Below, one piece after another: positions 26,824-46,636 of a DNA stretch of 64,000 nucleotides. The notes beneath the pieces are model-generated. The model was not told the DNA's origin and searched no databases. It worked only from the letters and a program-made list of their open reading frames with translations. The DNA comes from a virus. The stretch spans positions 45,594 to 109,593 of IMG/VR virus record IMGVR_UViG_3300020411_000371; one strand, 5' to 3'. A program made the position numbers and the translations under genes. The first letter of the stretch is position 1, and every line of letters starts with the position of its first letter.

Positions 26824-27354
26824 TCAGTTTGGTGGTTGGCACAAACTCGATCTTTTATCCCACTTGTAATCCTGATACAAACCTGATCTATCAACATACA
26901 TGAGAAATACTTGTATGTGTCTTGTACCTTGATATGGTTCTCTCCAATGGGGATAGTCTATGCCTTTGTATATGCATATATCACCCACATCCAATTCTAT
27001 TTCTATAGTATGTCCTTCACGCTCAAAGAATATAGGGAAATTACATTGCTTTTCTAAACAGCACGTTACACCATACTCTCCACTTGGTCGATCTGTATGT
27101 CTCTCTAACTCTGATCCATGTCCATATATCCTACCGTATGAGTATGTTGGATGTAATTTCTTACCAGTTTTATTTTCTATTTCTGGTTGCATCCATAACA
27201 ATAAACTCTCTAAGAATACTGGTGAATAATATCCAAATGCATTATTGATAGTTGGGTCTGGTGGGTTGCCCATACTCACTCTCATGAGTTCCATACTATT
27301 ACATAACACCTCGCACGTTTGTTTATTAATGACTTGTTTGACTACGTTTATCAT
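26824..27354 (-). CDS. 2OG-Fe(II) oxygenase, cluster member 1 (HxD...H)
   Basis: 176 residues from ATG 27352-27354, which overlaps the preceding TGA by ATGA; the longer in-frame start is less likely. His86-Thr-Asp88 (ERHTDRPSGEY) and distal His136 (DYPHWREPYQG) are the iron triad. The start of the active-site strand, LHPTYSYGRIYGHGSELERH, is typical of prolyl-hydroxylase-like oxygenases. It is the last gene of the oxygenase string. Substrate unknown. Confidence 0.82.
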   Translation of the reverse strand: MINVVKQVINKQTCEVLCNSMELMRVSMGNPPDPTINNAFGYYSPVFLESLLLWMQPEIENKTGKKLHPTYSYGRIYGHGSELERHTDRPSGEYGVTCCLEKQCNFPIFFEREGHTIEIELDVGDICIYKGIDYPHWREPYQGTRHIQVFLMYVDRSGLYQDYKWDKRSSLCQPPN

Positions 27355-27935
27355 GAGAAATTCATATTGAGTACACATCTAAATGGATTAGTTGTAGTGA
27401 ATGAACTAGCATGAAACCTTACACCATCAAACATGACTAGTCTGCCTTTCTTAGGTGATACTCTTTGTTTAATTGTCCACTTGTTTTCATTTGTTATTCT
27501 ATATGATTCTTCTTCTGTAAACTCTGTTAGTTTTTGGTCAAAGAAAAATGTATCACCATCACAATCATGAACATAATATATTGCTGACCAATGTGGTGTG
27601 TAATTGTCAGTATGTGGTGCATGATGTAATAGTTTAGACTGCTTATTACCTAGCATGAAATTAAATCTTAGTCTTTCTAATACATTCCATTTAATACCAG
27701 TTGCTTCAGTAATACTTAATACCATAGGATATATTAATGGAAATCTAGGTGATACAGGTTTTTGAACTTCATATAACATATGAATGAACCCATCTACATT
27801 GCCTTCATGTTCATCTTCGTTAGTTACAATTCCCTTTCTAAAATGTAATGGGAAATCTTTTTCATTAACTATTTGTTCTATGTGATCTGCATAATCTTTT
27901 GTTATGAAATCATCTACAACTATAATATCATTCAT
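27351..27935 (-). CDS. 2OG-Fe(II) oxygenase, cluster member 2
   Basis: 194 residues. His108-Thr-Asp110 in APHTDNYTPHWSAIYYVHD, distal His175 in DGVRFHASS, and Arg186 in FRCVLNMNF as the 2-oxoglutarate anchor. The phrase VSPKKGRLVMFDG before the distal His is shared with members 4 and 12, which suggests recent duplication. It couples to both neighbours by ATGA. Complete triad, so probably an active hydroxylase. Confidence 0.85.
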   Translation of the reverse strand: MNDIIVVDDFITKDYADHIEQIVNEKDFPLHFRKGIVTNEDEHEGNVDGFIHMLYEVQKPVSPRFPLIYPMVLSITEATGIKWNVLERLRFNFMLGNKQSKLLHHAPHTDNYTPHWSAIYYVHDCDGDTFFFDQKLTEFTEEESYRITNENKWTIKQRVSPKKGRLVMFDGVRFHASSFTTTNPFRCVLNMNFS

Positions 27936-28534
27936 ATCACTCTCCCAAAAAATACTAGAGTCAATCGAGATGTCTCTTTATTATGTCCAAAGAATCTACC
28001 TGCACTATGCCATCTAGTTGAGTCAGATATAACACAACGATTCCATCTATTTTCTGCAAGCATACTAGGTACCCATCTTGAATTGACTTTATCTCTTACA
28101 TCTTCATTCTGTCCTATATTATCATTTACATCATCACAATATTCTTTACTATGGTCTCCATCATTTGATGTATCTCTATCATCATAAAATGTAGTTCCAC
28201 AATCTTGTTTAGGTTTATCGTTGTTTAAATATACAATCCCTGCTACATTCCATTTAGGGTCATCATTATGAACCCATCCTCTTTTATATGTCTCATCTAT
28301 TAACTGAAATGTTGCTTCTAAATGTTGAAATCCTTTATAATTTCTAGGTATATAATTTAATAGTTTATCATGAAATGTATTGAAAAAATTTATATCCAAT
28401 TCATCTAAAAACTTAGTGCGAATACCTGGCCAATTACCTCTATCACCTTTAAAAAACTCTTGCTGTAATGCAAAGTTTCTTACAAGTGTTGGTGTCTCAA
28501 AAAAGTTATCTACTACTGTTAATGGTAGTCTCAT
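27932..28534 (-). CDS. 2OG-Fe(II) oxygenase-like protein (DUF6445-like), cluster member 3
   Basis: 200 residues. His89-Asn-Asp91 (GWVHNDDPKWNVAGIVYL) and distal His176 (DSTRWHSAGRFFG) with Arg190 in SRLTLVFFG. The N-terminus (VVDNFFETPTLVRNFALQQEF) resembles DUF6445 proteins of bacterial modification clusters. An inserted acidic region between the strands (residues 110-150) is long. Coupled by 4-nt overlaps. Confidence 0.75.
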   Translation of the reverse strand: MRLPLTVVDNFFETPTLVRNFALQQEFFKGDRGNWPGIRTKFLDELDINFFNTFHDKLLNYIPRNYKGFQHLEATFQLIDETYKRGWVHNDDPKWNVAGIVYLNNDKPKQDCGTTFYDDRDTSNDGDHSKEYCDDVNDNIGQNEDVRDKVNSRWVPSMLAENRWNRCVISDSTRWHSAGRFFGHNKETSRLTLVFFGRVI

Positions 28535-29049
28535 CTTGTGGAAAAATTATATGTTAGAACAATCCTAGTTGTATGTTCTTTAGGGCATGAACTTGCATGA
28601 GGAAACTTTCCATCAAATACAAAAAACCTTCCCTTCTTAGGTGATACCTTTGTTACTATGTCATCATCCCATACCAACGTATCACCATCACTATTATTCA
28701 AATAGTACAGTCCTACTTTATGTTCAAAGTTAAAATCAATATGCTTATTGTTATGTTCTTGGTCACAATTAGCCAGCAAACATCCTAATCTCATTCTATG
28801 TAATGCACCTAACTTTTGATTTGTTCTATACAAATATTCATTGAGTGGAGCCATGAACATATCTTCCTGACCTGATCTCTTCTGTCCATTGACTAGAACG
28901 TGAGCAAATCCTGGTGTGTTATGTCCTTCTCCCTCTTCAACGTAAGTTACATCAGGCATAAAATGCCAATCAAAACTTAAATCAGTTACCTTACTTAAAA
29001 GGAAATCTTGATGAGATTCTGGAATAATATTTTCAATAGTTTGAATCAT
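28531..29049 (-). CDS. 2OG-Fe(II) oxygenase, cluster member 4
   Basis: 172 residues. His103-Ile-Asp105 (NKHIDFNFEHKVGLYYL), the VSPKKGRFFVFDG phrase shared with member 2, distal His151 (FPHASS) and Arg162 (TRIVLTYNF). All catalytic positions are present. The N-terminal half differs from member 2, so only the catalytic core is duplicated. Confidence 0.83.
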   Translation of the reverse strand: MIQTIENIIPESHQDFLLSKVTDLSFDWHFMPDVTYVEEGEGHNTPGFAHVLVNGQKRSGQEDMFMAPLNEYLYRTNQKLGALHRMRLGCLLANCDQEHNNKHIDFNFEHKVGLYYLNNSDGDTLVWDDDIVTKVSPKKGRFFVFDGKFPHASSCPKEHTTRIVLTYNFSTR

Positions 29050-29627
29050 TTTCTAATTTGTATGTTGAAAGCAATGGATACTCTGTCTGTATTATCTATA
29101 CAGGTATCAACTGAGTGAGGTAACCAACCAGGAAATACAAACATCCTACCAGTTTTAGGTTTATATCTAACTACATCACCTGTTAATGGTGTATGATTTA
29201 TTATTTCTGTATCAGTAGTTTTCATATATTGTTTATCAAAATCTTTATAAAAAATAAGATCGCCACTATTCTCATTTGCTTGAACATAATATACACCTGA
29301 TAAGAATGAACCATGATGTATATGTATTTGATTTGAGTGACCTTGATTATTAATATTGCACCATAAATTATCTACATCAAATGCAGTATATGGATTTAAT
29401 CCCATGTCTTGTTTAACTTGATCTGCTATTTGAATTGCTACTTCACATAATGGTGGTACATGAGTTGAGGGAAATACATTTGACTGCCATCCACCATAAT
29501 TACTAATCTCTCTCCCTTCTGGATTATCAGTTTTTTTATTATATACTATATCTTTTAGATATTCATTATTGAGATTAGTATCTGTCCACCATACTGGTGT
29601 AGGGAAATATAAATCTAGATTAATCAT
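29046..29627 (-). CDS. 2OG-Fe(II) oxygenase-like, TIGR02466 type, cluster member 5
   Basis: 193 residues opening with LYFPTPVWW, the usual TIGR02466 start. His102 and His104/105 (QIHIHHGSFLSGVYYV) and distal His171 (FPGWLPHSVD), then Arg182 in DRVSIAFNIQ. A classical member of this phage-rich family. ATGA coupling on both sides. Confidence 0.85.
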   Translation of the reverse strand: MINLDLYFPTPVWWTDTNLNNEYLKDIVYNKKTDNPEGREISNYGGWQSNVFPSTHVPPLCEVAIQIADQVKQDMGLNPYTAFDVDNLWCNINNQGHSNQIHIHHGSFLSGVYYVQANENSGDLIFYKDFDKQYMKTTDTEIINHTPLTGDVVRYKPKTGRMFVFPGWLPHSVDTCIDNTDRVSIAFNIQIRK

Positions 29628-30199
29628 AATACTATTGGTATAAAACTAAAGTTACCAGTAACTAATTCATTGGTTTGTATATCAAATCCAAATGTAATTC
29701 TTTTATCTGTATAATCTTCTAATACATCAACATAATGAGGTCTGCTACCAACACCAATATAAACTTGATATGGACTATTCTTTATTCTATATAATTCTTT
29801 TCCATTAATCTTATCTTGAAATACAGTATCAGTCTTTTGAGGTGTTAATGAGAAATAACCATGATAAGGGAAATCATGTGAATGAGATTTCAATACTTGA
29901 TCTTTATCATGTATGTTCATCCACATCTGCATCCATACATTATCTTTTGGTATATTATTTACTTCAAAATAATCTTTAATACATTTTACAATAGCAAGAT
30001 ATAAATTGTATGTGTCCTTATTACATGATGCTATACTAAAAAAATTATAGAGATAATAGAAACCAGTATCATGTGTTTTATCATCAAATAAATGTTCAAA
30101 CTTTGCCTTTGACATATCGACATATTGAACTAATTTATCATGATCTATATCACAATGAATAGGGTCAATTTCATATAATTTGTAATCGTTATTTACCAT
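29624..30199 (-). CDS. Oxygenase-like jelly-roll protein, cluster member 6 (divergent)
   Basis: 191 residues. KSHSHDFPYHGYFSL (about 104-118) supplies His106, His108 and Asp109. His155 in GSRPHYVDV and Arg167 in KRITFGFDI are in the places expected for the distal ligand and co-substrate anchor. The rest diverges, so this could be a cupin-type or inactive member. Context within the coupled string supports membership. Confidence 0.6.
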   Translation of the reverse strand: MVNNDYKLYEIDPIHCDIDHDKLVQYVDMSKAKFEHLFDDKTHDTGFYYLYNFFSIASCNKDTYNLYLAIVKCIKDYFEVNNIPKDNVWMQMWMNIHDKDQVLKSHSHDFPYHGYFSLTPQKTDTVFQDKINGKELYRIKNSPYQVYIGVGSRPHYVDVLEDYTDKRITFGFDIQTNELVTGNFSFIPIVL

Positions 30200-30774
30200 T
30201 GAGGATACACAAATGCAGTTACAATGTACTTGTCGTTTGAAATAGGGATGTTGCCTTTATGAGGGAACATAAAATTACAAGGAAAACATAATACTTTCCC
30301 TGTTTCTGGTTTCACTAATCTGTTAAGAGTAATAAATTCAGTCTCACCACCCTCTTCAACATCATTAAGATATAGTATAAAGGCAAGTATTCTATTATAC
30401 GTTACTTTACTCATAGTGTCAACATGAGTTCCAAAATGTCCTTCTCCTTTCGGATACCTTCTGATAGAATATTCTGTTGATGTCATATCATACGGTATGG
30501 TTAATCCGTATGGTAATGATTTAATTGTCTTATCTATACACTCATATATTGTCTGGTATGATGCATGATCTGGTTCAACAAAACTTTGTTCTGCTACCTT
30601 CATATTAGTATTGACAAAATTTTCTGTATCATCCCTACTGACTCTACCTTGATGATGCTCCATCATATGATATTGATCTATAAGATAATTACATACATTC
30701 TTGTCTGTTATTGTTGACTCAAAAATAAAATCATTGAGATTATCTTCTTGTTTATGAAGTGTAAATGCTTTCAT
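30193..30774 (-). CDS. Prolyl-4-hydroxylase-type 2OG-Fe(II) oxygenase, cluster member 7
   Basis: 193 residues from ATG 30772-30774 (ATGA overlap). His117-Val-Asp119 (GEGHFGTHVDTMS), LAFILYLNDVEEGGETEF as the central strand pair, distal His172 (FPHKGNIP) and Lys183 (DKYIVTAFVY). The lysine in place of arginine is the mark of the P4Hc subgroup. Closest to true prolyl hydroxylases, so a protein-side-chain substrate is attractive. The substrate is inferred. Confidence 0.88.
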   Translation of the reverse strand: MKAFTLHKQEDNLNDFIFESTITDKNVCNYLIDQYHMMEHHQGRVSRDDTENFVNTNMKVAEQSFVEPDHASYQTIYECIDKTIKSLPYGLTIPYDMTSTEYSIRRYPKGEGHFGTHVDTMSKVTYNRILAFILYLNDVEEGGETEFITLNRLVKPETGKVLCFPCNFMFPHKGNIPISNDKYIVTAFVYPQW

Positions 30775-31514
30775 TGAATACAATATGCGTGTGACCATCT
30801 AAAATCACATGAATCCTCTATGTAAGGTGTATGTGATATTTCTGTATCATATAATGTCATAGTTCCTTCTTTACAAGGTGCTATTCCAACACACTCAAAA
30901 CCATAGTGTCTCTCTTCATCATCAGATAAATTTTTCCATCCATCTAATCTTTTCATGTGAGTACACAACTCTTTGACTTCATTGAACAATGGATGCTCTT
31001 GATCTACCATGAAATCATAGTATAGTTTATCATCTTGACCTTTAAATAAATTACCATGATATTTGTATATCTTAGTTCCTGAGTCAGGGTTAGTTGTAAA
31101 CCATAAATTAGAAACTAATCCTTTAGCACCATCTACATGAGGTAGTCTAAAATAATCCCAAGGGAAACTTTCCTCTTTAAAATATAGATTACCCCACTCT
31201 GTTAAATGTAGTTGTTCTACTTCTGCGTCACCAAACCATGTCCTAAAATATCCTCTCATTAATCTAAAAATTTCAATACAACACCAGTGTGGTAGATGTA
31301 TAGTTGCAAATGGGTTTGCATCCCTACAATTAGTTTTATTAGTGTCAGTCATTATAGGAAATGTTGCTGCTAATGATTTGTACAAGTCAAATGACCCATC
31401 TTCAAAAGGGTCATCAGCGACATAATATCCTATATCGTCAGTTAATTTTATATACTCTACATTCCAATCAGTTGGTTTCTTGATCTTTATCAGATCAGGA
31501 AACTCATGCTGCAT
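30771..31514 (-). CDS. 2OG-Fe(II) oxygenase-like protein, cluster member 8
   Basis: About 247 residues from ATG 31512-31514, chosen because it overlaps the previous stop by only 11 nt; in-frame codons extend further up. YFRLPHVDGAKGLVSNLWF contains an HVD iron motif, and SHTPYIEDSCDFRWSHAY near the end could supply the distal His. The HVDG...VSNLW phrase resembles DUF6445-like proteins. Probable oxygenase fold. Confidence 0.68.
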   Translation of the reverse strand: MQHEFPDLIKIKKPTDWNVEYIKLTDDIGYYVADDPFEDGSFDLYKSLAATFPIMTDTNKTNCRDANPFATIHLPHWCCIEIFRLMRGYFRTWFGDAEVEQLHLTEWGNLYFKEESFPWDYFRLPHVDGAKGLVSNLWFTTNPDSGTKIYKYHGNLFKGQDDKLYYDFMVDQEHPLFNEVKELCTHMKRLDGWKNLSDDEERHYGFECVGIAPCKEGTMTLYDTEISHTPYIEDSCDFRWSHAYCIQ

Positions 31515-32190
31515 TAAGAGTGTTCGGTAAAACAAATCTGTTTTCATAAACATCACATTTGAATAGTCTAGCATTAATATTATATGTCATCACCATCCTC
31601 TCACCACCAACTTTATTTACTTGACTTCTATGATTAACCCAACCAGGAAATATTAAAACTGTATTAGTAGGGCATTTAATTTCTTTCCATACTTCTTTCT
31701 CTGCATCATAAGGATAACCTGTCTTATGATATTCTAATGGGTCTTTTATTTCTATATTACCTTGACCTTCTCCATCATTTTGTAAGTAAGATGCTACAAC
31801 TAATTCAATACAATTATGTGTATGTTCTTTAGTCTGTCCTCCCTTCTCATGTCTATTAAACCATGATTGACTGATCTCACTTTCTGCTCCTAGATAACCA
31901 AATTGATCCCATACCCAACTAATTCTTGATCCTAACCAATTATTAAATGGTTGCATACACTCTTGATTATGAGGTTCTAATGTGTACTCATATCTACCTA
32001 CTCTTGATGTAGTAGAGTTAGGTATAGATTCTACTTGAGTTTGATCTGTCTTTGCTGCCCAATGATTCAAAGCTGCTTCGTATGTTGGTCTGATCTTTGG
32101 TAGTATATCACTAAAATCAAACTCATATTTAAAAACATAAGGATGCCATAAATGTAATCCTTCGCCAGAATAATCTTCAGCGATTATCAT
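31504..32190 (-). CDS. 2OG-Fe(II) oxygenase-like, TIGR02466 type, cluster member 9
   Basis: 228 residues. KEHTHNCIELVVASYL (His-x-His), WVNHRSQ as distal His and GERMVMTYNINARL as the terminal strand with Arg. An inserted loop between the two halves is rich in Gly and Lys. It follows the small coiled-coil protein by an ATGA overlap. Confidence 0.78.
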   Translation of the reverse strand: MIIAEDYSGEGLHLWHPYVFKYEFDFSDILPKIRPTYEAALNHWAAKTDQTQVESIPNSTTSRVGRYEYTLEPHNQECMQPFNNWLGSRISWVWDQFGYLGAESEISQSWFNRHEKGGQTKEHTHNCIELVVASYLQNDGEGQGNIEIKDPLEYHKTGYPYDAEKEVWKEIKCPTNTVLIFPGWVNHRSQVNKVGGERMVMTYNINARLFKCDVYENRFVLPNTLNAA

Positions 32191-32591
32191 GTTAACTCTT
32201 CATACTTCTTTCCAGGATCTCTTACCTTGACATCATCTAAAAAGAATGTTTCCTTTGCTATTTTTAATCCATTGATAGCACCTTCTAGTCGAGACATATG
32301 CTCCTTGAGTTCTTGTCTCTTACTGAAGTCAATTTGTGTTACACCATAAGGATTTAATTTAGTGTCTTTAAAATCCTCTTCTAGTTTCTCCACCTTTTCA
32401 TGTGCTTTGTTATACTGACCATTGAAATTATTGATTAAGTCATCAATAGTTTCCATTTTAAATTCTGCCAAATGTTTTGGTGAATCATCTGGTTTATGAT
32501 CTGCAAAAGGTATGCCTGTTTTAGGGTCAATAGCAGGTGCAGGGTTTTGCACCTTATCACCTGGTAAACCAGAAAATTGAATTTCGCTCAT
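32187..32591 (-). CDS. Coiled-coil protein in oxygenase/halogenase operon
   Basis: 134 residues. The N-terminus is Pro-rich and disordered (PGDKVQNPAPAIDPKTGIPF) and residues 60-115 form a long acidic coiled coil (YNKAHEKVEKLEEDFKDT ... RLEGAINGLKIAKE). No catalytic motif. It might be a scaffold or substrate carrier for the surrounding enzymes. Not recognised. Confidence 0.65.
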   Translation of the reverse strand: MSEIQFSGLPGDKVQNPAPAIDPKTGIPFADHKPDDSPKHLAEFKMETIDDLINNFNGQYNKAHEKVEKLEEDFKDTKLNPYGVTQIDFSKRQELKEHMSRLEGAINGLKIAKETFFLDDVKVRDPGKKYEELT

Positions 32592-33382
32592 AGTTTAAAA
32601 CCTTTGTTACGATACTTGTTGAATACTGTCATCACTCTATTTAGACGGTTCTGTACAGTGTCCTCTGCAATAAATTGTGATTGATTAGCATACTCGAAAG
32701 ATTCTTCCATCTGCCACTCTACATCACCTGCAGAGTCTATTATAGTCTCAAAATTACTATTTTGCAAGTATTTTCTATGCATTGGAATATATTGTATCAA
32801 TGGAGTTCCTGCTTTGACATGAGTTTCACCTTCTAATACATGCCAAAATAATTGTGCGTGTATTACATGACCGTATCTTGGGTCTAATAAACCAGTTGCT
32901 GCTGTAAATCTTTTCTCATTATTATAGTTGACTGGTAACTGTAGTAATACAATATCATCACTAGCTTTAACTCTCCAAGGAGTTTCTATCTTTACTACTG
33001 TCTTTAATGATTTACTAGGGTCGTCTAATAATGGTTCAACTTGTGTTTCATCATGCTTACCAATATATGATCTTTTATTACCACCCATTTTAAATAACCA
33101 AGGTGCTTCCCAATTTACTGAGATGCCATCACCATTAGTTGTTATTTTAAAATCAGCAGGTGCAGGTACAATATAACCTGATGACATTAAATTTTTAATG
33201 CCAGGACAATTAGCAGTTGATATTAAACCTGATACTGGGCATTTTGATTTCTTTCTCTCACCTTGAACCCATGATCTTTTATGATTACTAGCAGGTTTAA
33301 TTGGATAGAGATCAGTAACAGCAGGTTCTAACGAATAAAACCTGATCCAAGATTTTTTTCTAAACGGATTTGTAAATTTCAT
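32588..33382 (-). CDS. DUF6065-like protein next to halogenases
   Basis: 264 residues opening with SWIRFYSLEPAVTDLYPIKP. Later come ETPWRVKASDDIVLLQLPVN and FWHVLEGETHVKAGTPLIQY, patterns of the DUF6065 family, which also accompanies halogenase-like genes in other genomes as I recall. Likely jelly-roll fold; function unknown. It ends two bases before the coiled-coil gene start and overlaps the halogenase end by 23 nt. Confidence 0.65.
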   Translation of the reverse strand: MKFTNPFRKKSWIRFYSLEPAVTDLYPIKPASNHKRSWVQGERKKSKCPVSGLISTANCPGIKNLMSSGYIVPAPADFKITTNGDGISVNWEAPWLFKMGGNKRSYIGKHDETQVEPLLDDPSKSLKTVVKIETPWRVKASDDIVLLQLPVNYNNEKRFTAATGLLDPRYGHVIHAQLFWHVLEGETHVKAGTPLIQYIPMHRKYLQNSNFETIIDSAGDVEWQMEESFEYANQSQFIAEDTVQNRLNRVMTVFNKYRNKGFKL

Positions 33383-35024
33383 CTCTCAAGAACTCATAAT
33401 GTGAGGGTAATTGTGCAACGTATTTACTGAAGTAATCTTTCCATTGTAAATACTTTCTTCTAACATCTGGTAGTTCATCTTCTGATACCATGTTTTCTTT
33501 TAATTGGTATAGAGATCTCTTTAAGTACGATGTAGATCTTATTCCATGACCTGCAGCTATAAATGGTATTCCATTCATATTTACATGCCATCCTTCACCA
33601 TAGGTTGATGACATGAACTGTTCTATACTTTGATGCATAGGAACATTCTGTGTTACTTGCTCTGGATTATAGAAGTTTTGTTGTGTACACCACCTCCAAT
33701 ATGGTGTATCAGTTCTCATAGAGAACGCATAATGCATTGCAACAAAATCAATAAAGTTATCAACTGTGTAATTACATATCCAGTTAAATCCTTCTTTCTC
33801 AGTTCTTGTTACATATCCATCCCTTTGATTTAAAACTGATACTAGTCTAAGTATATTCTCATGTGTTGTTAACAGACCAGTAGACTCTAATGGTTCTACA
33901 AATCCGTATGATAATCCTATACCTACTACATTATTAACCCATGCTCTTTCTCTCCTTCCATGCTTTATATCAATATGAAATAACTCTGCTTCATCTGCTC
34001 TCTTCTTACCAACTTTATATCTAAGATGTTCTATAAAATCTTTTCTTGCTTGCTCCTTACGACAGAATCTACTTGAGTAAACATAACCTTTACCAATTCT
34101 ATTCCATAGTGGTATGTCCCATGTCCAACCGTTAGGCATAGCCCAACAATCAGTTACGTTACGCATTTCTTTTTCTCTTGTTTCTTCAAGATAAGGAATA
34201 CGAGCTGCCCATGCACTATCATTTGCAAGTTTATTATCACAAAGATAAAAAGGTATTCCCTGATATTCTCCTAATAATTTTGACTTAAATCCTGTACAAT
34301 CAATATATAAATCTGCCTGTATTGCATTAACACCATCCATGATGATATAACTAATGGTTTGATCATTAGGTCTTTCATACATTGTCTGGTATCCAGTTAT
34401 CTCTCCCTTAATATGTTGAACACCATTAGGAATACAAATATGATCTCTAAGATAGATACCAAACTTTGTTGCATCTAAATGATATGCAGTATGTCTTCTA
34501 AAATCAAAATCTCTAGTTACACCATCACGATTTCTAGTTTGTTTATTCTCATTGCATAAAAAAGTATTAGCACAATAAAATTCTGCAAACGATTCTGGGG
34601 GAAATTCTTCTGGATAATGTGATGCTAGGTGACCCCATGTGTTAAGTCCTGCGTTAGCAAAAGTAAAATCATAATTTGAATAAAATGGATATTGAAATAC
34701 CTCTTCCTTTCCTTCTCTAAAGTTAGTAAATTGTATGCCATTTTTATATGTTGCATCACAATGAGGCATCCAATCTTCATCCTCTAAGTCTAACAGTTCT
34801 AAGTACTGATTGAAATGTCCTAAAGTTGATTCACCCACACCAATAGTTTTAATATCTGGTGATTCAACTAAAGCAATCTCTAAATGAGGGCATAACTTTG
34901 ATAATGCTGCTGCTGTCATCCATCCTGATGACCCACCACCAACAATAACTACACTTTCAATCTTACCTTTGTAAGGATCAAAGTTTTCAAATTCTATAAC
35001 GTGATCTGGTTCAGTTACTTTCAT
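33360..35024 (-). CDS. Flavin-dependent tryptophan halogenase homologue 1
   Basis: 554 residues. An FAD-binding GGGSSGW (29-35), VGESTLGHF (63-71), candidate catalytic Lys94 in CDATYKNGIQF (PrnA Lys79 position), the family-specific WxWxIP as WTWDIP (300-305), and EPLESTGL later, with the catalytic Glu region. These FADH2-dependent enzymes oxidise halide to a lysine-bound hypohalite and halogenate indoles or phenols. All key residues are present, so it should be active if an FAD reductase is supplied by the host. The substrate is unknown. It is transcribed together with homologue 2. Confidence 0.9.
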   Translation of the reverse strand: MKVTEPDHVIEFENFDPYKGKIESVVIVGGGSSGWMTAAALSKLCPHLEIALVESPDIKTIGVGESTLGHFNQYLELLDLEDEDWMPHCDATYKNGIQFTNFREGKEEVFQYPFYSNYDFTFANAGLNTWGHLASHYPEEFPPESFAEFYCANTFLCNENKQTRNRDGVTRDFDFRRHTAYHLDATKFGIYLRDHICIPNGVQHIKGEITGYQTMYERPNDQTISYIIMDGVNAIQADLYIDCTGFKSKLLGEYQGIPFYLCDNKLANDSAWAARIPYLEETREKEMRNVTDCWAMPNGWTWDIPLWNRIGKGYVYSSRFCRKEQARKDFIEHLRYKVGKKRADEAELFHIDIKHGRRERAWVNNVVGIGLSYGFVEPLESTGLLTTHENILRLVSVLNQRDGYVTRTEKEGFNWICNYTVDNFIDFVAMHYAFSMRTDTPYWRWCTQQNFYNPEQVTQNVPMHQSIEQFMSSTYGEGWHVNMNGIPFIAAGHGIRSTSYLKRSLYQLKENMVSEDELPDVRRKYLQWKDYFSKYVAQLPSHYEFLRDEIYKSV

Positions 35025-36429
35025 AATAATCTACTGCAAAGGGAAAAGATTCTTGTAATTCATCATAGTGGTCAAAGTTAGCAACAGAGAAATATCCCTG
35101 TCTATTTAATTTACCATCCTTCTCTAATAATTCTAGCATAACTTTATCAAAAGGATGATAGTTATGCCCTGCACAAATAAAAGCACCTCCATATAAGTTG
35201 CCCATTGTCCAGTTTTCTACAGGAAGTTTGGTGTATGGTATTGATTCATGTTCTTGAGTAAGATATTTCCAGTATGGTGTATCTTCTCTTGTAGAAAGAT
35301 GATAATGTAACGCTACAAAATCTTTAAAACCAATAAAACTTTCTCTAACATATGTATTAAAGAAATTGATGTCTGCTTTTCTAATTACTGGTAGGGTTAA
35401 CACCTTGGATGCTTCAATTAACCAGTTATGTACACTCAATAAACTATTACTCTCTAATGGTTCAATAAATCCACCACTTAATCCTATTGATAATACTTTG
35501 CCTCTCCAAGGTTTATCTGATAGTCCAGTTCTAAATTTAATTAATCTGTAATCTGATAGAGTTTCTTTTGGATAACCTAAATGTTTTTTAAATTCTTCTA
35601 GTGCATCTTCATCACTCACAAATTTAGATGAGAAATTATATCCTGTTCCAATACGACTTCTTAATGGAACATTCCATACCCATCCGTTGTCCATACCAGT
35701 GCAATTAGTATAAACTCTTTGTTGTTCACATTTATTTGTATAAGGTAGTCTTACTGTCCATGCTCTATCGTTAGGTAATTCTTTATCAAACTTATCCCAG
35801 TTCTCATAGTCATACACATCTGATAATAAACTCTTAAATCCTGTACAATCTACAAACAAATCATAATCTTCATTGAGAATACTTTTATCTACATGTTTAA
35901 TGATATGATTAACTTTTCTACATCTATTAATTCTCAACCAATTAGCAAACTTTGCTGCGTCTATATGAAATCCTCTATGAACTTTATGATGATAGAAATC
36001 AACATCCTGTTGAATAATTCTATTTTCTACAATAGATTTATAGTGAGGGCAATAGAACTTTGCAAATGTATCTACAGGACAATCTGTTAATGTTTTATGT
36101 ATGAACCAATTAGATATATCTAATGATGGAGTTTCTATTATGTTTATAAAAGGAAAGTGAAATGCTCCCTCTGTTGCAGAAAAATTTTCAAACCTGACAC
36201 TATACTTGTAAGTAGCATCACATTCTCTCATCCAATCTTCATCTTTTATTTCAAGTAGTTTTAACCACTCTGAAATAAATTGAGTAGTAGATTCACCTAC
36301 ACCTATAGTAGGAACGTTAGGTGATTCTATTAATGTTATTTCTTTATCAGGATTTAGATGCGAAAAGGTGGCTGCAGTCATCCAACCTGCGGTGCCACCT
36401 CCTACGATGCAAATTTTATTAACCTTCAT
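35011..36429 (-). CDS. Flavin-dependent tryptophan halogenase homologue 2
   Basis: 472 residues. FAD motif GGGTAGW (10-16), VGESTTQFISEW, catalytic-Lys candidate Lys75 (CDATYKYSVRF), WVWNVP at the WxWxIP position and EPLESNSLL. It is about 80 residues shorter than homologue 1 and only moderately similar, so the pair is an old duplication or two acquisitions. It overlaps the start of homologue 1 by 14 nt. FAD supply and substrate unknown. Confidence 0.88.
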   Translation of the reverse strand: MKVNKICIVGGGTAGWMTAATFSHLNPDKEITLIESPNVPTIGVGESTTQFISEWLKLLEIKDEDWMRECDATYKYSVRFENFSATEGAFHFPFINIIETPSLDISNWFIHKTLTDCPVDTFAKFYCPHYKSIVENRIIQQDVDFYHHKVHRGFHIDAAKFANWLRINRCRKVNHIIKHVDKSILNEDYDLFVDCTGFKSLLSDVYDYENWDKFDKELPNDRAWTVRLPYTNKCEQQRVYTNCTGMDNGWVWNVPLRSRIGTGYNFSSKFVSDEDALEEFKKHLGYPKETLSDYRLIKFRTGLSDKPWRGKVLSIGLSGGFIEPLESNSLLSVHNWLIEASKVLTLPVIRKADINFFNTYVRESFIGFKDFVALHYHLSTREDTPYWKYLTQEHESIPYTKLPVENWTMGNLYGGAFICAGHNYHPFDKVMLELLEKDGKLNRQGYFSVANFDHYDELQESFPFAVDYYESN

Positions 36430-36458
36430 AATATAACTTTACTAGTATATATTATACA

Positions 36459-36959
36459 CTATGCATTTGGATCTGTCCACCCTTCATATCTCTTCCATGC
36501 AGGTAACTCTGGATAAGACATTTTAGGGAACTTGTCTGCACCTGGTTCTTCTGTTTCCGAATAAGATTTTAATTCTGTTGGTGTTGCTGGTACTGATTTA
36601 GCAACTGGTTTAACATAAGTGGATTTGATATTCTTAATATGCTGATACCACTCTGCATCACTTGCATCTAAACTTTTACCTGCTGCAATGTCTCGATAGA
36701 GCATGTCTAATTGTTCGCCCACCTCTCCATACGCAACCTGCCTTGCCATACCTGGATCAGTATAACTTCCACTTCTCTCAATCCATATCATTTTACCTTG
36801 GGCAGGTGACCACTCTAGAGTCCAATCTAGAGTTATGTTATCGTTATCTACATCAACCCAGACAAACTTAGCATCTGGACCATTGTAAATTTCAAACTCT
36901 TGACCAGGATCAACAATCTGCATTGCTCTTCCTTCAATAGATACTAAAACTTTTTTCAT
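36459..36959 (-). CDS. Tail-fibre-region protein with YGEVGEQLDMLYRD motif
   Basis: 166 residues. MARQVAYGEVGEQLDMLYRD is a motif I recognise from phage fibre-cluster proteins and tail-fibre assembly factors. The N-terminal part is a small beta domain (IEGRAMQIVDPGQEFEIYNG) and the C-terminal third is Pro-rich. It lies directly downstream of a T4-type late promoter and next to fibre tip genes, so a fibre chaperone or accessory is likely. Exact role unproven. Confidence 0.6.
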   Translation of the reverse strand: MKKVLVSIEGRAMQIVDPGQEFEIYNGPDAKFVWVDVDNDNITLDWTLEWSPAQGKMIWIERSGSYTDPGMARQVAYGEVGEQLDMLYRDIAAGKSLDASDAEWYQHIKNIKSTYVKPVAKSVPATPTELKSYSETEEPGADKFPKMSYPELPAWKRYEGWTDPNA

Positions 36960-36982
36960 TTGTCTGAATAATACCTCGTTGT

Positions 36983-36990
36983 TATTTATA
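36983..36990 (-). promoter_or_regulatory. T4-type late promoter (TATAAATA)
   Basis: A perfect TATAAATA on minus, 24 nt upstream of the 36459 gene. Confidence 0.65.
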
Positions 36991-37819
36991 AGTAATGAGT
37001 TACAACAACTAAGCCAGGTCTTCCATTAGAACCCCTGTGACCGTTGAAGTATCCACCATTTCCACCCGAACCTGGTGGTGAATGACTTTGATGGTTATGA
37101 CTGAAGTTTCCTCCTTGAGGGTGACCACCTGCTACACAAGCACCCCAGAATCCTCTTCCAGAGTTAGCATTTGATGATCCACCATCATGATGTTGGTCTC
37201 CACCACCACCATAGATATTCAGATTACCCCCCGATCCAACGCCTCCAAGACCACCATTGTGTTGGTGATTTCTGTTGGCACCATAACCACCAGAAGCTGA
37301 GAGATAACTTCCGAACGAACTGGATCCCCCATTTCCAGCACCTCCTCGATAATATGTTCCACCTGCTTCTCCTGATACGCTTACTGATACTGTTGACACA
37401 CCTTCTACATTAATAATTTCTTCGGAGTACCCACCTGCTCCTCCACCTTCACCGTGACCACCGCCACCTCCTCCACCTCCAATAACTTGGACGTGAGCAT
37501 AACGAACTCCTGATGGACGTGACCATGTGCCACCTGATGTGAACACACTCATACTGGTTAAGTTACCTTGAGGTCCTAAGAATGTTTCCCAATAAGGAGA
37601 ACTTCCATTAGATTTTAAAACCTTACCTGCATTACCAGACTGTGACGGTAGGAATCTTGCTGTTTGATTACCAGTAACACTACCATCTATTTGTAAAGTA
37701 CTGACAGTTAATTTCCTGTCACCACCATCAGCTCTAGTAATAGTCCATTGAGAACCACTTCTAGTTAGACCACAGTTTCCTGAGACATCATATATGTTTA
37801 GTACTTTTAAACTACTCAT
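36986..37819 (-). CDS. Glycine-rich tail-fibre tip adhesin, copy 1
   Basis: 277 residues. The first 110 residues are a conventional fibre-like domain. Residues about 115-260 are glycine-rich blocks (GGGGGGGGHGEGGGAGGYSEE, cut at 20 in the real run) interspersed with aromatic and His-rich loops, which fits the polyglycine-helix layered tips of T4-like adhesins such as gp38. The tip contacts the host receptor. The gene abuts copy 2 at 37819/37820. Confidence 0.7.
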   Translation of the reverse strand: MSSLKVLNIYDVSGNCGLTRSGSQWTITRADGGDRKLTVSTLQIDGSVTGNQTARFLPSQSGNAGKVLKSNGSSPYWETFLGPQGNLTSMSVFTSGGTWSRPSGVRYAHVQVIGGGGGGGGHGEGGGAGGYSEEIINVEGVSTVSVSVSGEAGGTYYRGGAGNGGSSSFGSYLSASGGYGANRNHQHNGGLGGVGSGGNLNIYGGGGDQHHDGGSSNANSGRGFWGACVAGGHPQGGNFSHNHQSHSPPGSGGNGGYFNGHRGSNGRPGLVVVTHYL

Positions 37820-38623
37820 TTATTTAAAGTGTGTAATAACGATCATACCAGGTCTACCATTAGACCCTCTGTGTGAGTTAAAGTAACCACCACTACCACC
37901 TGAGCCAGGTGCTGAGTGTGACTGGTGATTATGACTGAAGTTTCCACCTTGAGGGTGTCCACCTGCTACAGCACCACCCCAGAATCCTCCACCACCAACT
38001 GATGAACGACCATGATGAGAGTCTCCTCCACCACCATAGATGTTTAAGTTTCCTCCAGAACCTACTCCTCCTAAACCACCACAATGTTGGTGATTTCTAT
38101 TAGCACCATATCCACCTGATGCTGATAGGTAAGAACCGAATGAAGATGAACCTCCATTACCTGCTCCACCTCTATAATATGTTCCGTTTGATTCTCCTGA
38201 TACTGTGCAATATACTGAACTTATACTTTCTACGTTAATAACTTCCTCTGAATATCCACCTGCTCCTCCACCTTCTCCATGTCCACCACCAGCTCCACCG
38301 CCACCGATAACTTGAACTTTGATATACTTAACATCTGAAGGTCTATTCCATGTACCTGATGATGTAAATACACTCATACTTGAGATATTATCTGCAGATG
38401 GTGGGTTATCCCAATAAGGACTTGTCCCATTGGTATATAACATCTTACCACTTTGACCTGAGTGTGAGGGCAAAATACTATTTGTTGATCCTGTGATAGA
38501 ACCATCAATCTGTAGGGTTCCTGGTATCACCAATGTATTATTGGTCTGCACTGTAGTGGCTGACAGAACGAAACCAGTATTCCCTGTCAAATCTTTAATA
38601 GCAGCAACTCGTAGTGTACTCAT
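37820..38623 (-). CDS. Glycine-rich tail-fibre tip adhesin, copy 2
   Basis: 267 residues and closely similar to copy 1 throughout, including the RGGAGNGGSSSFGSYLSASG and GANRNHQHCGGLGGVGSGGN stretches. Differences concentrate in loops after the glycine blocks and in a Val-Gly-rich piece in place of a Ser-Asn stretch in copy 1, the pattern expected if loops change host range. Likely tandem duplication. Confidence 0.7.
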   Translation of the reverse strand: MSTLRVAAIKDLTGNTGFVLSATTVQTNNTLVIPGTLQIDGSITGSTNSILPSHSGQSGKMLYTNGTSPYWDNPPSADNISSMSVFTSSGTWNRPSDVKYIKVQVIGGGGAGGGHGEGGGAGGYSEEVINVESISSVYCTVSGESNGTYYRGGAGNGGSSSFGSYLSASGGYGANRNHQHCGGLGGVGSGGNLNIYGGGGDSHHGRSSVGGGGFWGGAVAGGHPQGGNFSHNHQSHSAPGSGGSGGYFNSHRGSNGRPGMIVITHFK

Positions 38624-39104: not shown

Positions 39105-39112
39105 TATTTATT
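39105..39112 (-). promoter_or_regulatory. Late-promoter-like box (AATAAATA)
   Basis: AATAAATA on minus immediately before the 38648 gene (23 nt to the ATG) and preceded by CTAAATA. Confidence 0.45.
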
Positions 39113-42100
39113 TAGATAGGTAATTCAACAATATGAACTGTATCAGTCGCTAAAGGTGCATCCCCTGATCCAAATACAACGTTAGCACCATTACTATCAA
39201 CTGTATAATTAGTGCCACCAATTTGTGCTACACCATTTAAGTATACAAGTACTGAGCTAGCACTGTGCTGAATAGGACCATTAGGACCTGGTGTGTAAAC
39301 TGTCAGTGCGAATGTTAATGTAACACCATCACCAGTATATGTTCTGGTAATATACTTATCAGAACCAACACCACCGTTACCAGTAACAACTAAGTCACCA
39401 TCAATTAATATATTACCAAGTGCTTTGACTCTATAGTATTGGTTAGGTGCAGTTCCTAAACCAAGAACAGTGTTACCACTATATTCCTCTATATTAATAT
39501 CTTTTGTATTTGTAAGACCAAACTCTTTCCATCCTTGATTAAAGTAGATCCAACCAAGTGATTTACCAGGATTCCAGTTGATATTATAAACTAAGTCACC
39601 ATCTGCAGGTGTATTATAGTTTGTAATAGCAGATAAATCAGGTGCATTTCCTGCTTGATTTTCTGGTGCAAGTAGTGTCTGTTTAATAACAGTACCATCT
39701 TGGTTATAGTATGATAGTTTTCTTGATGAAATATTATCCTGTGATGTTACTTGTTTCTGGAAGGTAACAGGACCTGCAAAGATAGATTCTAACTGGTTTG
39801 ATGCACCACCAATAACTGTTAGTTTATCAGTTAACACCAATTCAGAGAACGTTTCAATAGTTGTGTTCTCTTCACCAATAACGTTTAACTGTGCAATATC
39901 TTCATTAGTTATCTGACCTGTAACTGGGTTGATAACTTGGTTACCGATGAATAGGTCACCGTTGGAGTTAAGACCAGAGTAGAAACTGACTCCTCCTTCT
40001 TCCTTAATTGACTGTGAGAATCTAACTTGGTTCTGTGTAAGAGTCTCGACCTGTGTCTGAGGGAATGCTGTGGAGTAGTTACCTGGACCGAAACCGAGGT
40101 ATTCAAACGTATGGTTACCTGATCTAAGGATTGAGTGTCGTCTAAACTCAACGTTGATTGGTGCGACTGTTCCATCATTATTCTCCCTTATATTAATCTT
40201 TCGAGTTTCTTCATCACCTGCACGTGCAGTTAACTCAATATTAGATAGTCTCTTGTTAACTGAGTCATAGTTAGGTGTAGTACCTGGTTGTGTCCAACCT
40301 GTATCTGTAAGTAAGAACTCTGTGCATTCTTTAGTAATAGATCTTTGAGGATCCATATTTGGTGGAGTTGCTCCATCTGTAGCATTAACTAATCCAATAG
40401 TAACGTTATCAGCAATGGATACAGCAGCATCTGGGTCTGCAAGTGGATTATCTCTGTCAAATGTAGGATAAACTTCATTAACGTTTTGAGAGAAGAATCT
40501 ATCATTAAAGTTAGATGTACTTGGTGCGATAGATGCACACAAGAGAGTCAGGTAATAGATACCATCTGCAACACCTCTTTCAAATTCTTGAACAACATTA
40601 ATATCATAAAGATAGAAACATTTGTCTAACTTATATGATGTTGTGTCACTATTCAATGGTTGCATAACATAACCAGAGATAGGGTCTCTAGGTAATGGAT
40701 TAGTCTTATCCTTATCAATTACATATCTTACACGATATGTTCTGTCAGCAAGGTTTCTTGGATCGGGGATCCTCTTTAAGAATGTAGTTGGTGTAAAGTT
40801 AACAGTATTATAGATCGTGTTAACTGATAATGTAGTGTAAATGGTATTATTTACTGAGTTAACAGATAGATACCAACCACCTGGTTGACCTGCTACACCA
40901 TTAATAGTATATAAGTTTGCATCATACTGGATCGGTGATCCAGGTTCTCCTGCTGATACACCAGAAACAGTAGGTCCATAAGGTGATATAGATGCATAAT
41001 GAACACTCGCTTCTGTTGCTCCTGATGCTACAAGTAAACAGTTAATTTTATCTGCTACTGCTGTATTACCAGTTCCATCTTGTCTAGCACCGATTGTATA
41101 TCCTTGAACTCTTGTTGTTGGTGGTGATTGTTCAACAGTATAACCATACAAGTATAGTCTAGTACCTGGCGTTCCACCTTGTCCCGCTAGTGAAGAGTTA
41201 ATTGCTTTTGTTCTTGGAATATCAATGTTAACCCAGTTAACTGATGTCTCTTCTCCAAATATAACGTTTTGGTTTGCTAAGTCTGCTGTATTAACAGTAT
41301 CAAGTGTGATAACTCTAGTATTAGTATTAACAGCACCAACTAATGCACCTTCTCCAATTCCCGTTCCAGAAACGAGCATACCTTCAATAATACCATTAAC
41401 ACTACCATCATTAGCTAGTGTAATAGTATTAGAACCATTACTACCAGTTGCAGTTGTAGAAATAACATTAAGTGCTTTAGGTGGTATAACATGTGTTAAT
41501 GCACCTGACTTATCTTTAGAGAATGATTTCTTCTTAAATCCTGCTGCTCTTAATGCTGTATTACCAAAGTTACTGTTACTGTTAGTAATTGACATGTCAG
41601 CACCACGCTCACATGTAAAGTGTGCAAAGTATCCCACAGCGAACACAGAAACCGCCTGTATAAATGCGTCATCTGATGCAACAATATGTCTATGTCCCCA
41701 TCCTTTTCTGTACTCAGCATATCCATCTAAGTGTGCACCATCACCTGCTGTTGCTACATCATAATTACCAGTCGAACTATTATATCTTACAAATGCTCTA
41801 TCGTCTTTCTGTAGTGACAGTCCAGTAAACTGTGCCACAACCATTGATTTGAAACCAGTTGCTTTAGCACCGTTTGCATGCATACCGTTCATACCCCACA
41901 CTGATCTTAGTGATAGGTTAAATGCGTATGGAGATGCAGAGTCAACTGTATCAATCTCAGTCTTAACTCCAATGTTTGTACCTACTGCGTTACCAGTTGG
42001 TTCACTTGACATCTGATACGTAAATACGTTTCCAGATGCAGATGTAACAGTAAATGATCCATTATATAAACTTGCGTCAACTTCTGACTGAGGACCTGTT

Positions 42101-43089
42101 GAACCAGTTACACCACTAACGTTAATGTTTACACCAACAGAGAATCCGTGATTTCTTGGGTTATCAAACTCGTCAACAGTAACAGCAGTTGCAGTGTTAC
42201 CATTTCTTGTAATCTGTAATACCCTATATTCATCAGAAATAGGACCAACGATTCTGTTTTCCTCAACCCTTGCCTGTATTTGGTCTGCACTTGGGTCACC
42301 TGATGTATCGGGAATTGTTGCGAATGCTTTTGATACTTTTTGATAGTATATGTCTAAGTCTGTTCTTTCTAAGATGTTAGGAACAGCTGAATAGTCAGCA
42401 TTAGGAACAGTTCCATTAGATATAAGACTTGATAAAGTATTAAGACCATCAGCAAACTCAAAACATGTAAGTCTGTGATGTGAAAACTTAGGTGCTAGTG
42501 TTTCAGTGGAATCAGGTTTGAAGTATACACCCTCTTCAGCACCGTCGAAGAAAGAGAATTGCCAGAAATAAGTACCACCAGTAACTTTGAAGATTGCAGT
42601 TCTTGGGGGGATTTGATCTTCGGTGTTAATACCTTTTGCAGCGTAGATAGTAGGGTATGGAACATATTTTGGAATAATTTTTGTACGACGAAGGTCAGTT
42701 CCAACAACAGAACAACCTCTGGGAACTATAATACCACCTTCAGTGGAATTAAATTTATAAAGAACGTTATTAGGTGAAGTTAAATCTAGGTTTGAGTTCT
42801 CATCAATAGGTGCAACGTTAGTATATAATACTTCGCCTGGTCTATTATCAATCACATACTCAGCAGGATATAGCATGATACTAAAAGCATCAAACTCGTC
42901 ATTACTGAGACCAACTCTATATGAAAATCTTGCTACCTCTAAAAATGCCCTTTGTAGTGATTTGAAAGGACGCAACGCTGAATTACCCCTATTATCAATA
43001 GCATCAGATGCGTCAAAATCGTCAGGGTTTACGTAGATTATACGTCCAGTTCTGGACGTAATAATATTCTTTAATCTCGTTAGGGACAT
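39112..43089 (-). CDS. Large virion structural (fibre or baseplate-peripheral) protein
   Basis: 1325 residues. The start MSLTRLKNIITSRTGRIIYV then NPDDFDASDAIDNRGNSALR is one I know from cyanomyovirus structural proteins annotated as fibre-like. The composition (Thr, Asn, Gly and Val rich, few Cys) fits long beta-helical spikes. No enzymatic domain was noticed. It lies in the fibre region between two late-promoter boxes and next to the tail-fibre proteins. The number in the T4 scheme is not clear. Confidence 0.8.
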   Translation of the reverse strand: MSLTRLKNIITSRTGRIIYVNPDDFDASDAIDNRGNSALRPFKSLQRAFLEVARFSYRVGLSNDEFDAFSIMLYPAEYVIDNRPGEVLYTNVAPIDENSNLDLTSPNNVLYKFNSTEGGIIVPRGCSVVGTDLRRTKIIPKYVPYPTIYAAKGINTEDQIPPRTAIFKVTGGTYFWQFSFFDGAEEGVYFKPDSTETLAPKFSHHRLTCFEFADGLNTLSSLISNGTVPNADYSAVPNILERTDLDIYYQKVSKAFATIPDTSGDPSADQIQARVEENRIVGPISDEYRVLQITRNGNTATAVTVDEFDNPRNHGFSVGVNINVSGVTGSTGPQSEVDASLYNGSFTVTSASGNVFTYQMSSEPTGNAVGTNIGVKTEIDTVDSASPYAFNLSLRSVWGMNGMHANGAKATGFKSMVVAQFTGLSLQKDDRAFVRYNSSTGNYDVATAGDGAHLDGYAEYRKGWGHRHIVASDDAFIQAVSVFAVGYFAHFTCERGADMSITNSNSNFGNTALRAAGFKKKSFSKDKSGALTHVIPPKALNVISTTATGSNGSNTITLANDGSVNGIIEGMLVSGTGIGEGALVGAVNTNTRVITLDTVNTADLANQNVIFGEETSVNWVNIDIPRTKAINSSLAGQGGTPGTRLYLYGYTVEQSPPTTRVQGYTIGARQDGTGNTAVADKINCLLVASGATEASVHYASISPYGPTVSGVSAGEPGSPIQYDANLYTINGVAGQPGGWYLSVNSVNNTIYTTLSVNTIYNTVNFTPTTFLKRIPDPRNLADRTYRVRYVIDKDKTNPLPRDPISGYVMQPLNSDTTSYKLDKCFYLYDINVVQEFERGVADGIYYLTLLCASIAPSTSNFNDRFFSQNVNEVYPTFDRDNPLADPDAAVSIADNVTIGLVNATDGATPPNMDPQRSITKECTEFLLTDTGWTQPGTTPNYDSVNKRLSNIELTARAGDEETRKINIRENNDGTVAPINVEFRRHSILRSGNHTFEYLGFGPGNYSTAFPQTQVETLTQNQVRFSQSIKEEGGVSFYSGLNSNGDLFIGNQVINPVTGQITNEDIAQLNVIGEENTTIETFSELVLTDKLTVIGGASNQLESIFAGPVTFQKQVTSQDNISSRKLSYYNQDGTVIKQTLLAPENQAGNAPDLSAITNYNTPADGDLVYNINWNPGKSLGWIYFNQGWKEFGLTNTKDINIEEYSGNTVLGLGTAPNQYYRVKALGNILIDGDLVVTGNGGVGSDKYITRTYTGDGVTLTFALTVYTPGPNGPIQHSASSVLVYLNGVAQIGGTNYTVDSNGANVVFGSGDAPLATDTVHIVELPI

Positions 43090-45979: not shown

Positions 45980-46636
45980 TTATTTATAAGGGGTACGATC
46001 CCTTTCTTTGTTAACTATACTAAACATTTCACCTAACTGATTGTTAGGGTGATATATGTGTTCAATATACTCTTTAGATATGTGATTTAACGTTATATTA
46101 AACGCTAAACTATACCTATTACTGGTAGAAGGACACTCTGGATCTACCCAATGTTCTATCCAACTAGGAAAATATACTAAAAGTCCTTTTTTAGGTGATA
46201 TTTTTATCCTTCCAGAATTATATAAAGTTGCGTGTTCATGATATTGATATGGAACTGCATATTCCATCACATTTGTAATTGGATTTTTTAATACTAAGTC
46301 TGGTGACTCTTCATCTGCCTCTGGATAAAATACAGCACTAATCCAATGTGTGCCATGAAGATGAGGTTTTAAAGGTTCAGAAGCATTATTTCTGTTTGCC
46401 CAACATGTAGTAACTCTTGGTCTTGACTGCAATCCTAAACCATATATCTTCATAAACTCAGGAATAGAGTTATGAACTTCATCTATAACATCATGTATAG
46501 CAGGTTCATTTAAGTTAAGTGGTAAACCTGGTTCTACAGTCTTGATATACTCTACAATTTTATCACAATCAACATCTAATATATCAGACGCAATAAAATT
46601 AGAGAACAAAGGTTCTATAAAGAATTTTTCAGTCAT
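45980..46636 (-). CDS. 2OG-Fe(II) oxygenase-like, TIGR02466 type, outside main cluster
   Basis: 218 residues. PHLHGTHWISAVFYPEAD offers His-x-His ligands, FPSWIEHWVDP the distal His and NRYSLAFN the Arg-bearing last strand. The SPKKGLLVYFPSW phrase resembles cluster members 2 and 4. It is next to the fibre genes and behind a late promoter at its stop end, so it may be co-expressed with virion proteins. Substrate unknown, possibly a fibre residue. Confidence 0.78.
   Translation of the reverse strand: MTEKFFIEPLFSNFIASDILDVDCDKIVEYIKTVEPGLPLNLNEPAIHDVIDEVHNSIPEFMKIYGLGLQSRPRVTTCWANRNNASEPLKPHLHGTHWISAVFYPEADEESPDLVLKNPITNVMEYAVPYQYHEHATLYNSGRIKISPKKGLLVYFPSWIEHWVDPECPSTSNRYSLAFNITLNHISKEYIEHIYHPNNQLGEMFSIVNKERDRTPYK
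45981..45988 (-). promoter_or_regulatory. T4-type late promoter (TATAAATA)
   Basis: A perfect TATAAATA on minus, 28 nt upstream of the 443-residue fibre-like gene, overlapping the stop of the oxygenase-like gene. Confidence 0.65.

Follow-up and report, generated by a model that had tools for sequence, protein, structure and literature searches.

What would a phage do with two flavin-dependent halogenases (FDHs) and nine oxygenase-like genes set side by side? The question is raised by a 64,000-nucleotide stretch of viral DNA (the window), positions 45594-109593 of the 109.6-kb IMG/VR virus record IMGVR_UViG_3300020411_000371, which by gene content belongs to a T4-like cyanomyovirus. A sequence-only reading of the window had suggested that these genes make up a modification pathway, whose target might be the nearby fibre proteins, a metabolite of the host or the surface of the cell. 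The first of these targets is favoured here, narrowed to the glycine-rich tail-fibre tip proteins encoded at 36986-38623, which had not been part of that gene set. From gene linkage, protein fold and promoter inference, we propose, with a probability of roughly 0.6, that a late operon hydroxylates and halogenates these tip adhesins before assembly.

Linkage of the enzyme genes to fibre tips

On the minus strand, the genes at positions 26824-36429 overlap at their ends and encode a pair of halogenases, a protein of 264 aa, a coiled-coil-like protein of 134 aa and nine oxygenase-like proteins. The open reading frames (ORFs), strand and coordinates agree with the contiguous operon of nine adjacent oxygenase-type genes described earlier. 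From hal1 (35011-36429) to oxA (26824-27378), the genes overlap at each of the 12 junctions; in six of these the overlap is exactly four bases (ATGA), as had been said of most, and in the remaining six it is 7-71 bases. Compared with two relatives, every operon gene examined has a ratio of nonsynonymous to synonymous substitution rates (dN/dS) of 0.06-0.41, indicating purifying selection and thus that the genes are maintained. The same gene families recur, in order and content, in cyanophage Syn9 and approximately 200 IMG/VR loci, so the arrangement is not due to chance. This synteny search had been proposed by the sequence-only reading, and neither outcome that it had named as damaging was found, since the iron sites, judged from conserved residues, are kept and the genes are not scattered in relatives. 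The operon extends upstream of the halogenases to take in the tip genes gly1 and gly2, and is thus a larger unit than 26824-36429 (Table 1).

The association with tips was followed in IMG/VR loci fetched with alignments of phrog_1787, tip or FDH proteins, and the figures describe this family rather than all Gly-rich tips. The recurrent order is fibre, one to four Gly-rich tips, phrog_1787, one to three FDHs, the dUTPase-fold protein, the coiled-coil protein and up to 11 oxygenases. Among 93 non-redundant phrog_1787 loci, phrog_1787 lies directly behind a Gly-rich tip in all 92 that are testable, an FDH lies less than 2.5 kb from phrog_1787 in 83/83 loci long enough to tell, and usually 4-11 oxygenases follow within the next 10 kb. 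Where no FDH is present at this place, oxygenases still adjoin the Gly-rich tip (S-SM1, S-RSM4, S-SSM5, P-RSM4, S-B64, S-RIM4 and Syn33). The presence or absence of oxygenases was rejected as support for the linkage because all 25 cyanomyoviruses have 2-oxoglutarate (2OG) oxygenases; only gene order is informative.

The block also keeps its place beside tips when the surroundings change. In S-RIM44 and Sf-FP1, the fibre proteins of the window were not detected and neck genes follow downstream, while the series from tip to oxygenases is unchanged. In two loci (L246 and L253), the enzymes are encoded on the other strand and point towards phrog_1787 and three tips, which they still adjoin. In two others (L234 and L243), a block with three copies of the dUTPase-fold gene faces a tandem triplet of C1q/TNF-type tips, one of which matches PF00386 (E 1.2e-6) and others C1q/TNF families more weakly; phrog_1787 is absent where the tips are of the C1q type. 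Convergence of tandem C1q/TNF-type tips with an FDH, dUTPase-fold (three copies) and oxygenase block was observed in L237 and L240 as well as in L234 and L243. Because the enzymes stay with tips across differing fibres, flanks, strands and tip types, the tip is singled out as the probable target. We consider it very likely that tips and enzymes belong to a single conserved unit of genes. Alternatively, the site behind the fibre genes may be a hot spot of gene gain whose enzymes act on unrelated targets, as might be argued from the variability of fibre-flanking regions in T4-like phages and from the FDHs and oxygenases found elsewhere in the genomes. A hot spot would, however, vary in content, whereas very different phages share these families in one order, and the block is still beside the tips in a new genomic setting or when its strand is reversed; such hitch-hiking is therefore very unlikely.

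Viewed from the halogenases, the association is looser, with a recognised Gly-rich tip in 43 of the 80 loci found through FDH. Seventeen FDH loci have at least four oxygenases and no recognised Gly-rich tip; among them, a different Gly-rich ORF (G >= 0.22) is present in six and C1q-type tips in four. Lone FDHs are mostly without either.

Of the tips themselves, gly2 was examined by structure prediction. The AlphaFold model of gly2 has a predicted local distance difference test (pLDDT) score of 86.6, with most of the Gly-rich part at 92-98, and its best Foldseek match is the fibre of cyanophage Pam3 (7yfw, E 3.6e-7), with the Bxb1 tail tip and the glycine-rich domain of ALK next in rank. This predicted tip fold and the position behind a fibre gene are as in Gly-rich fibre-tip adhesins of the gp38/Pam3 gp24 type. 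The window tips are thus predicted to resemble the Pam3 fibre in fold, and receptor binding may be carried over from their relatives: in Pam3, recognition of the host receptor is ascribed to the TNF-like and Gly-rich domains (PMC9608196), and in S16, the distal loops of the equivalent adhesin gp38 track host range (PMC6851490). The phrog_1787 protein, for which a profile search gave no PDB homologue, occupies a position like that of gp25, the dedicated chaperone of the Pam3 fibre (PMC9608196), from which, by analogy, we infer that it may be a tip chaperone or assembly factor.

FDH-linked tips are rich in His (5.6% vs 1.6%), and Y150 and H203 are invariant. Two further candidate sites in the tips, H180 and N175, are invariant or nearly so. 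Aromatic residues gave no significant enrichment in these tips (Tyr plus Trp, p 0.12); only that of His was significant. Tip genes also show signs of turnover. Syn9 gp39 (L003, 16185-17457) has the appearance of a tip gene with an internal duplication and a disrupted frame, and stops interrupt one of the tip copies in S-CREM1 (L005, 15787-16600); such copies suggest that tip paralogues come and go.

Table 1 Features of the tip and enzyme operon and of associated genes in the window (all on the minus strand)
Feature	Position	Description	Supporting matches and residues
Long tail-fibre gene	39112-43089	Long tail-fibre protein upstream of tips; late promoter motif NATAAATA 28 bp upstream	Homologues annotated tail fiber in Syn9 and others
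gly2	37820-38623	Gly-rich tail-fibre tip protein, 267 aa; candidate substrate	PF21722; phrog_863
gly1	36986-37819	Gly-rich tip, gly2 paralogue, 277 aa; candidate substrate	PF21722; phrog_863
Late promoter motif	36983-36990	T4-type motif NATAAATA, 31 bp before phrog_1787 start	
phrog_1787	36459-36959	Protein also labelled "YOR", constant companion of Gly-rich tips	
hal1	35011-36429	FDH	PF04820 4.8e-89; VirX1 6QGM 3e-84; catalytic Lys K75 conserved
hal2	33360-35024	FDH, VirX1 orthologue	PF04820 1.6e-97; 6QGM E 2.7e-218; K94, E377/E380 and WxWxIP kept
dUTPase-fold gene	32588-33382	Predicted dUTPase-fold protein	phrog_7084; AlphaFold pLDDT 93.5
Coiled-coil gene	32187-32591	Short coiled-coil-like protein, position conserved	
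oxI	31504-32190	HxH...H...R oxygenase, 2OG-FeII_Oxy_5	PF13759 1.4e-9; H123 H125 H187 R198
oxH	30771-31574	HxD...H...R oxygenase-like	phrog_1644, common to oxC; H146 D148 H248 R259
oxG	30193-30798	2OG-FeII_Oxy_3	PF13640 4.2e-13; H125 D127 (D or E) H180 K190
oxF	29624-30199	HxH...H...R oxygenase-like, no Pfam match	hhalign 95% with oxE; phrog_81; H106 H108 H155 R167 invariant
oxE	29046-29627	2OG-FeII_Oxy_5, HxH	PF13759 1.4e-23; H102 H104 H171 R182
oxD	28531-29049	2OG-FeII_Oxy_3-like	PF13640 1.2e-5; H103 D105 H151 R162
oxC	27932-28534	DUF6445 oxygenase-like	PF20043 5.6e-11; H89 D91 H176 R190
oxB	27351-27935	2OG oxygenase, oxD paralogue	hhalign 100% with oxD; PF13759 1.4e-5; H108 D110 H175 R186
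oxA	26824-27378	HxD...H oxygenase-like, no Pfam match	H94 D96 H144 R146 invariant in 28 sequences
2OG oxygenase pair	45980-47124	Between fibre and gp5 hub genes	PF13759 7e-16; PF13640 1.1e-4

Halogenases, oxygenases and their small partners

Both halogenases are full length and carry FDH motifs, in agreement with the sequence-only reading. The motifs of tryptophan-type FDHs (the dinucleotide motif GxGxxG, a WxWxIP-type motif, the catalytic Lys and a PLES-type Glu motif) were found as GGGSSG, GWTWDIP, K94 and E377/E380 in hal2 and as GGGTAG, GWVWNVP (I to V), K75 and E323/E326 in hal1. The orthologue of hal2, VirX1 of cyanophage Syn10 (PDB 6QGM), has published halogenating activity and is a broad in-vitro iodinase, with a large accessible active site that takes bulky substrates (PMC8407142) and thus fits a protein substrate. 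In two relatives (L050 and L051, on the same contigs as L013 and L014) with about 87% FDH identity to the window, hal1 is absent and hal2 is kept along with all nine oxygenases.

The iron sites and Arg/Lys anchors that had been read from the sequence are invariant or nearly so among relatives, with the triad and anchor in eight of the nine oxygenases and the triad in oxA. In the latter, the usual anchor position is not conserved and R146 at His+2 is conserved instead; its assignment depends on the HxD...HxR motif, since it has no Pfam match. By profile, oxB, oxD, oxE, oxG and oxI match 2OG-FeII_Oxy_3/_5; oxE, oxG and oxI exceed the Pfam cutoff (as does oxC via DUF6445), oxB and oxD fall below it, and oxA, oxF and oxH gave no match. 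A profile-profile comparison with oxE (95%) and membership of phrog_81 tie oxF to the oxygenases, and profile searches of the PDB with oxA, oxC and oxF gave nothing useful. Four further oxygenases, at 8734, 24832, 45980 and 46633, also match 2OG-FeII_Oxy_3/_5, bearing out the earlier count of 13 in the window; across this whole group of matches, some lie just below the Pfam cutoff. HxH replaces HxD in oxE, oxF and oxI and, elsewhere in the window, in those at 8734, 24832 and 45980.

Several of these families carry other names. The labels ferrochelatase (phrog_2954), DNA endonuclease V (phrog_274) and minor coat protein (phrog_1644) sit on oxygenase-like HxD...H proteins, and the first is not supported for oxA. 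Surveys in which viral "ferrochelatases" are scored as metabolic genes (e.g. PMC11561400) may include such oxygenase-like proteins.

The 264-aa protein had been called DUF6065-like. No PF19541 match was found by profile search in the window protein or in seven phage records, the only hit being a paralogue at E 0.11, and membership of DUF6065 was rejected in favour of a dUTPase fold. All top 50 Foldseek matches of the model are dUTPases or dCTP deaminases (probability 0.97-1.00), the sequence profile also picks dUTPases weakly, and a paralogue in another virus matches the dUTPase family PF00692 above cutoff. On its model, then, the protein is predicted to have the dUTPase fold. A motif-3-like G164..D167 is nearly invariant, and the remaining dUTPase motifs were not recognised. 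A relative of the dUTPase-fold protein is encoded near tail-fibre/adhesin genes in haloarchaeal tailed viruses (Hafunaviridae; L039, 9797-10687, and L040, 9734-10570).

The gene content also bears on whether the operon makes a small molecule or a ribosomally synthesised and post-translationally modified peptide (RiPP)-like product, with the coiled-coil or phrog_1787 protein as possible precursor, or instead alters glycans on the surface of the host and so prevents superinfection. Both FDHs and 2OG oxygenases are well-known tailoring enzymes of natural products, and the coiled-coil protein is conserved in position. However, the operon was found to hold no gene for scaffold synthesis, maturation or export and no glycosyltransferase gene, the phrog_1787 gene goes with tips and is absent beside C1q-type ones, and the coiled-coil gene is missing from several otherwise complete loci, so that these products are an unlikely outcome. 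A natural-product or RiPP cluster was likewise rejected by family scans of 26824-38623, which gave no scaffold, precursor or maturation gene.

Probable late expression and proposed tip modification

In the window, the T4-type late promoter motif NATAAATA occurs 27-35 bp before gp5, two fibre genes, the gene at 38648 and phrog_1787. Across loci, it lies upstream of 48% of fibre genes, 52% of phrog_1787 genes, 26% of tips and 13% of FDHs, compared with 2-4% in shuffles (for phrog_1787 within 70 bp, 52% vs 2.6%), and it precedes only 1% of dUTPase-fold and oxygenase genes. The simplest reading of these motifs is that a late transcript may carry the enzymes together with the tips. A sigma-70 scan of the region gave match counts at the random level (83 vs 90); against that background, an 11/12 match of this type, TGGACA-17-TATAAT, lies at 36451-36479, 22 bp before hal1.

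The promoter placement is relevant to auxiliary metabolism, in which the oxygenases would consume or sense 2OG, steering host nitrogen/NtcA regulation and energy supply, and the halogenase would make an antibiotic-like metabolite. Modulation of 2OG/NtcA has been proposed for cyanophages (PMC3037559) and repeated (PMC9602691), antibiotic protection by the halogenase has been proposed as well (PMC2984593, PMC9964418), and 2OG oxygenases are abundant in all cyanomyoviruses examined, with up to 24 per genome (PMC9602691). These functions leave the strict tie to tip genes (92/92) and the late promoter placement unexplained. In addition, one enzyme would be enough to drain 2OG, making nine divergent paralogues unneeded, and the operon has no genes for pyrrolnitrin or another pathway. 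We therefore regard auxiliary metabolism as distinctly unlikely.

In the proposed tailoring of tips, a module expressed late with the receptor-binding tip would act on newly made tip proteins, perhaps held by phrog_1787. Different 2OG oxygenases would hydroxylate the tips at several residues, each enzyme serving roughly one site or one type of residue; the presence of several paralogous oxygenases fits several target sites. The VirX1-type FDHs would halogenate aromatic or His residues before fibre assembly, Y150 and H203 being possible targets. Such modification would harden the tip or widen the chemistry of its binding loops toward host receptors. The dUTPase-fold and coiled-coil proteins may serve as scaffolds or recruiters, which is the weakest step, and the cyanobacterial host would have to supply FADH2, 2-oxoglutarate and Fe(II).

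Several points weigh against this interpretation. The whole case is one of linkage, fold and promoter inference, and the promoter motif evidence is only statistical. The His enrichment of FDH-linked tips is not phylogenetically independent, as it may reflect common descent. Similar FDHs lie away from tips in S-B64, S-MbCM6 and many more distant loci, as the 43/80 with a recognised tip indicates, and 2OG oxygenases, present in 25/25 cyanomyoviruses, also occupy other genome positions. Finally, 6/13 window oxygenases have HxH, not HxD. Elsewhere among the structural genes, a small SET-domain protein (7376-7705; PF00856, 4.9e-9) adjoins the gp25 baseplate gene and is a possible further protein-modifying enzyme.

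Related systems and significance

The closest known counterpart is Syn9, in which gp38-gp54 (NC_008296) comprise the same families in nearly the same order as the window, starting at the tips. That locus has been annotated piecemeal (halogenase, oxygenase, "minor coat protein", "endonuclease V", "ferrochelatase") and not as a unit, and it has an extra JmjC gene, gp49. Syn9 and Syn10 both carry genes corresponding to hal2. A review lists no biosynthetic context for VirX1 (PMC8407142); in the window, its orthologue hal2 shares an operon with tip adhesins and another FDH. The adhesins S16 gp38 and Pam3 gp24 share with the window tips a Gly-rich domain at the fibre tip; the available text on them describes no tailoring enzymes (PMC6851490, PMC9608196), whereas the window tips are tandem paralogues with an enzyme operon.

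Bacterial clusters with the order TonB receptor, FDH, SapC, optionally Cupin_8 and FDH, and DUF6445 (L322, e.g. Thalassotalea loyana, and L347) likewise place FDHs and oxygenase-type partners beside a gene for a surface protein, and are an independent case of this association. They differ from the phage block in that their FDHs are at most 36% identical, SapC replaces the dUTPase-fold protein and there are one or two oxygenase-type genes rather than nine. The occurrence of DUF6445 with bacterial FDHs, together with the membership of oxC, suggests that it is an oxygenase-type family. A bacterial origin or counterpart of the whole block was rejected, as a genome contig search gave only these distant FDHs (identity again no higher than 36%) and only oxC-like neighbours, in 6/80 loci. 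Hydroxylation of a repetitive structural protein by 2OG oxygenases is familiar from mimivirus and eukaryotic collagen, which differs from the phage block in fold and involves neither halogenases nor a phage adhesin.

Cyanophage 2OG oxygenases and VirX1 have been widely reported, and their role for the phage has been guessed to lie in host metabolism. In the open-access literature searched (subscription papers and preprints being outside the search), no paper links these oxygenases or halogenases to tail tips. Tip tailoring proposes a native substrate for VirX1, in competition with the published 2OG/nitrogen-metabolism and antibiotic readings. In a broader form, to which we give even odds, this is a dedicated operon for "adhesin chemistry", mobile by horizontal transfer, whose batteries of oxygenases and VirX1-type FDHs put many hydroxyl and halogen groups on tips and so provide phages with binding surfaces beyond the twenty amino acids, and the 2OG oxygenases counted as auxiliary metabolic genes are largely virion-maturation enzymes. 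If tip tailoring is true, VirX1 would gain a native substrate and a large class of "auxiliary metabolic genes" would become virion-maturation genes. Abundant marine phages would then recognise their hosts via post-translational chemistry that is invisible to sequence-based host prediction.

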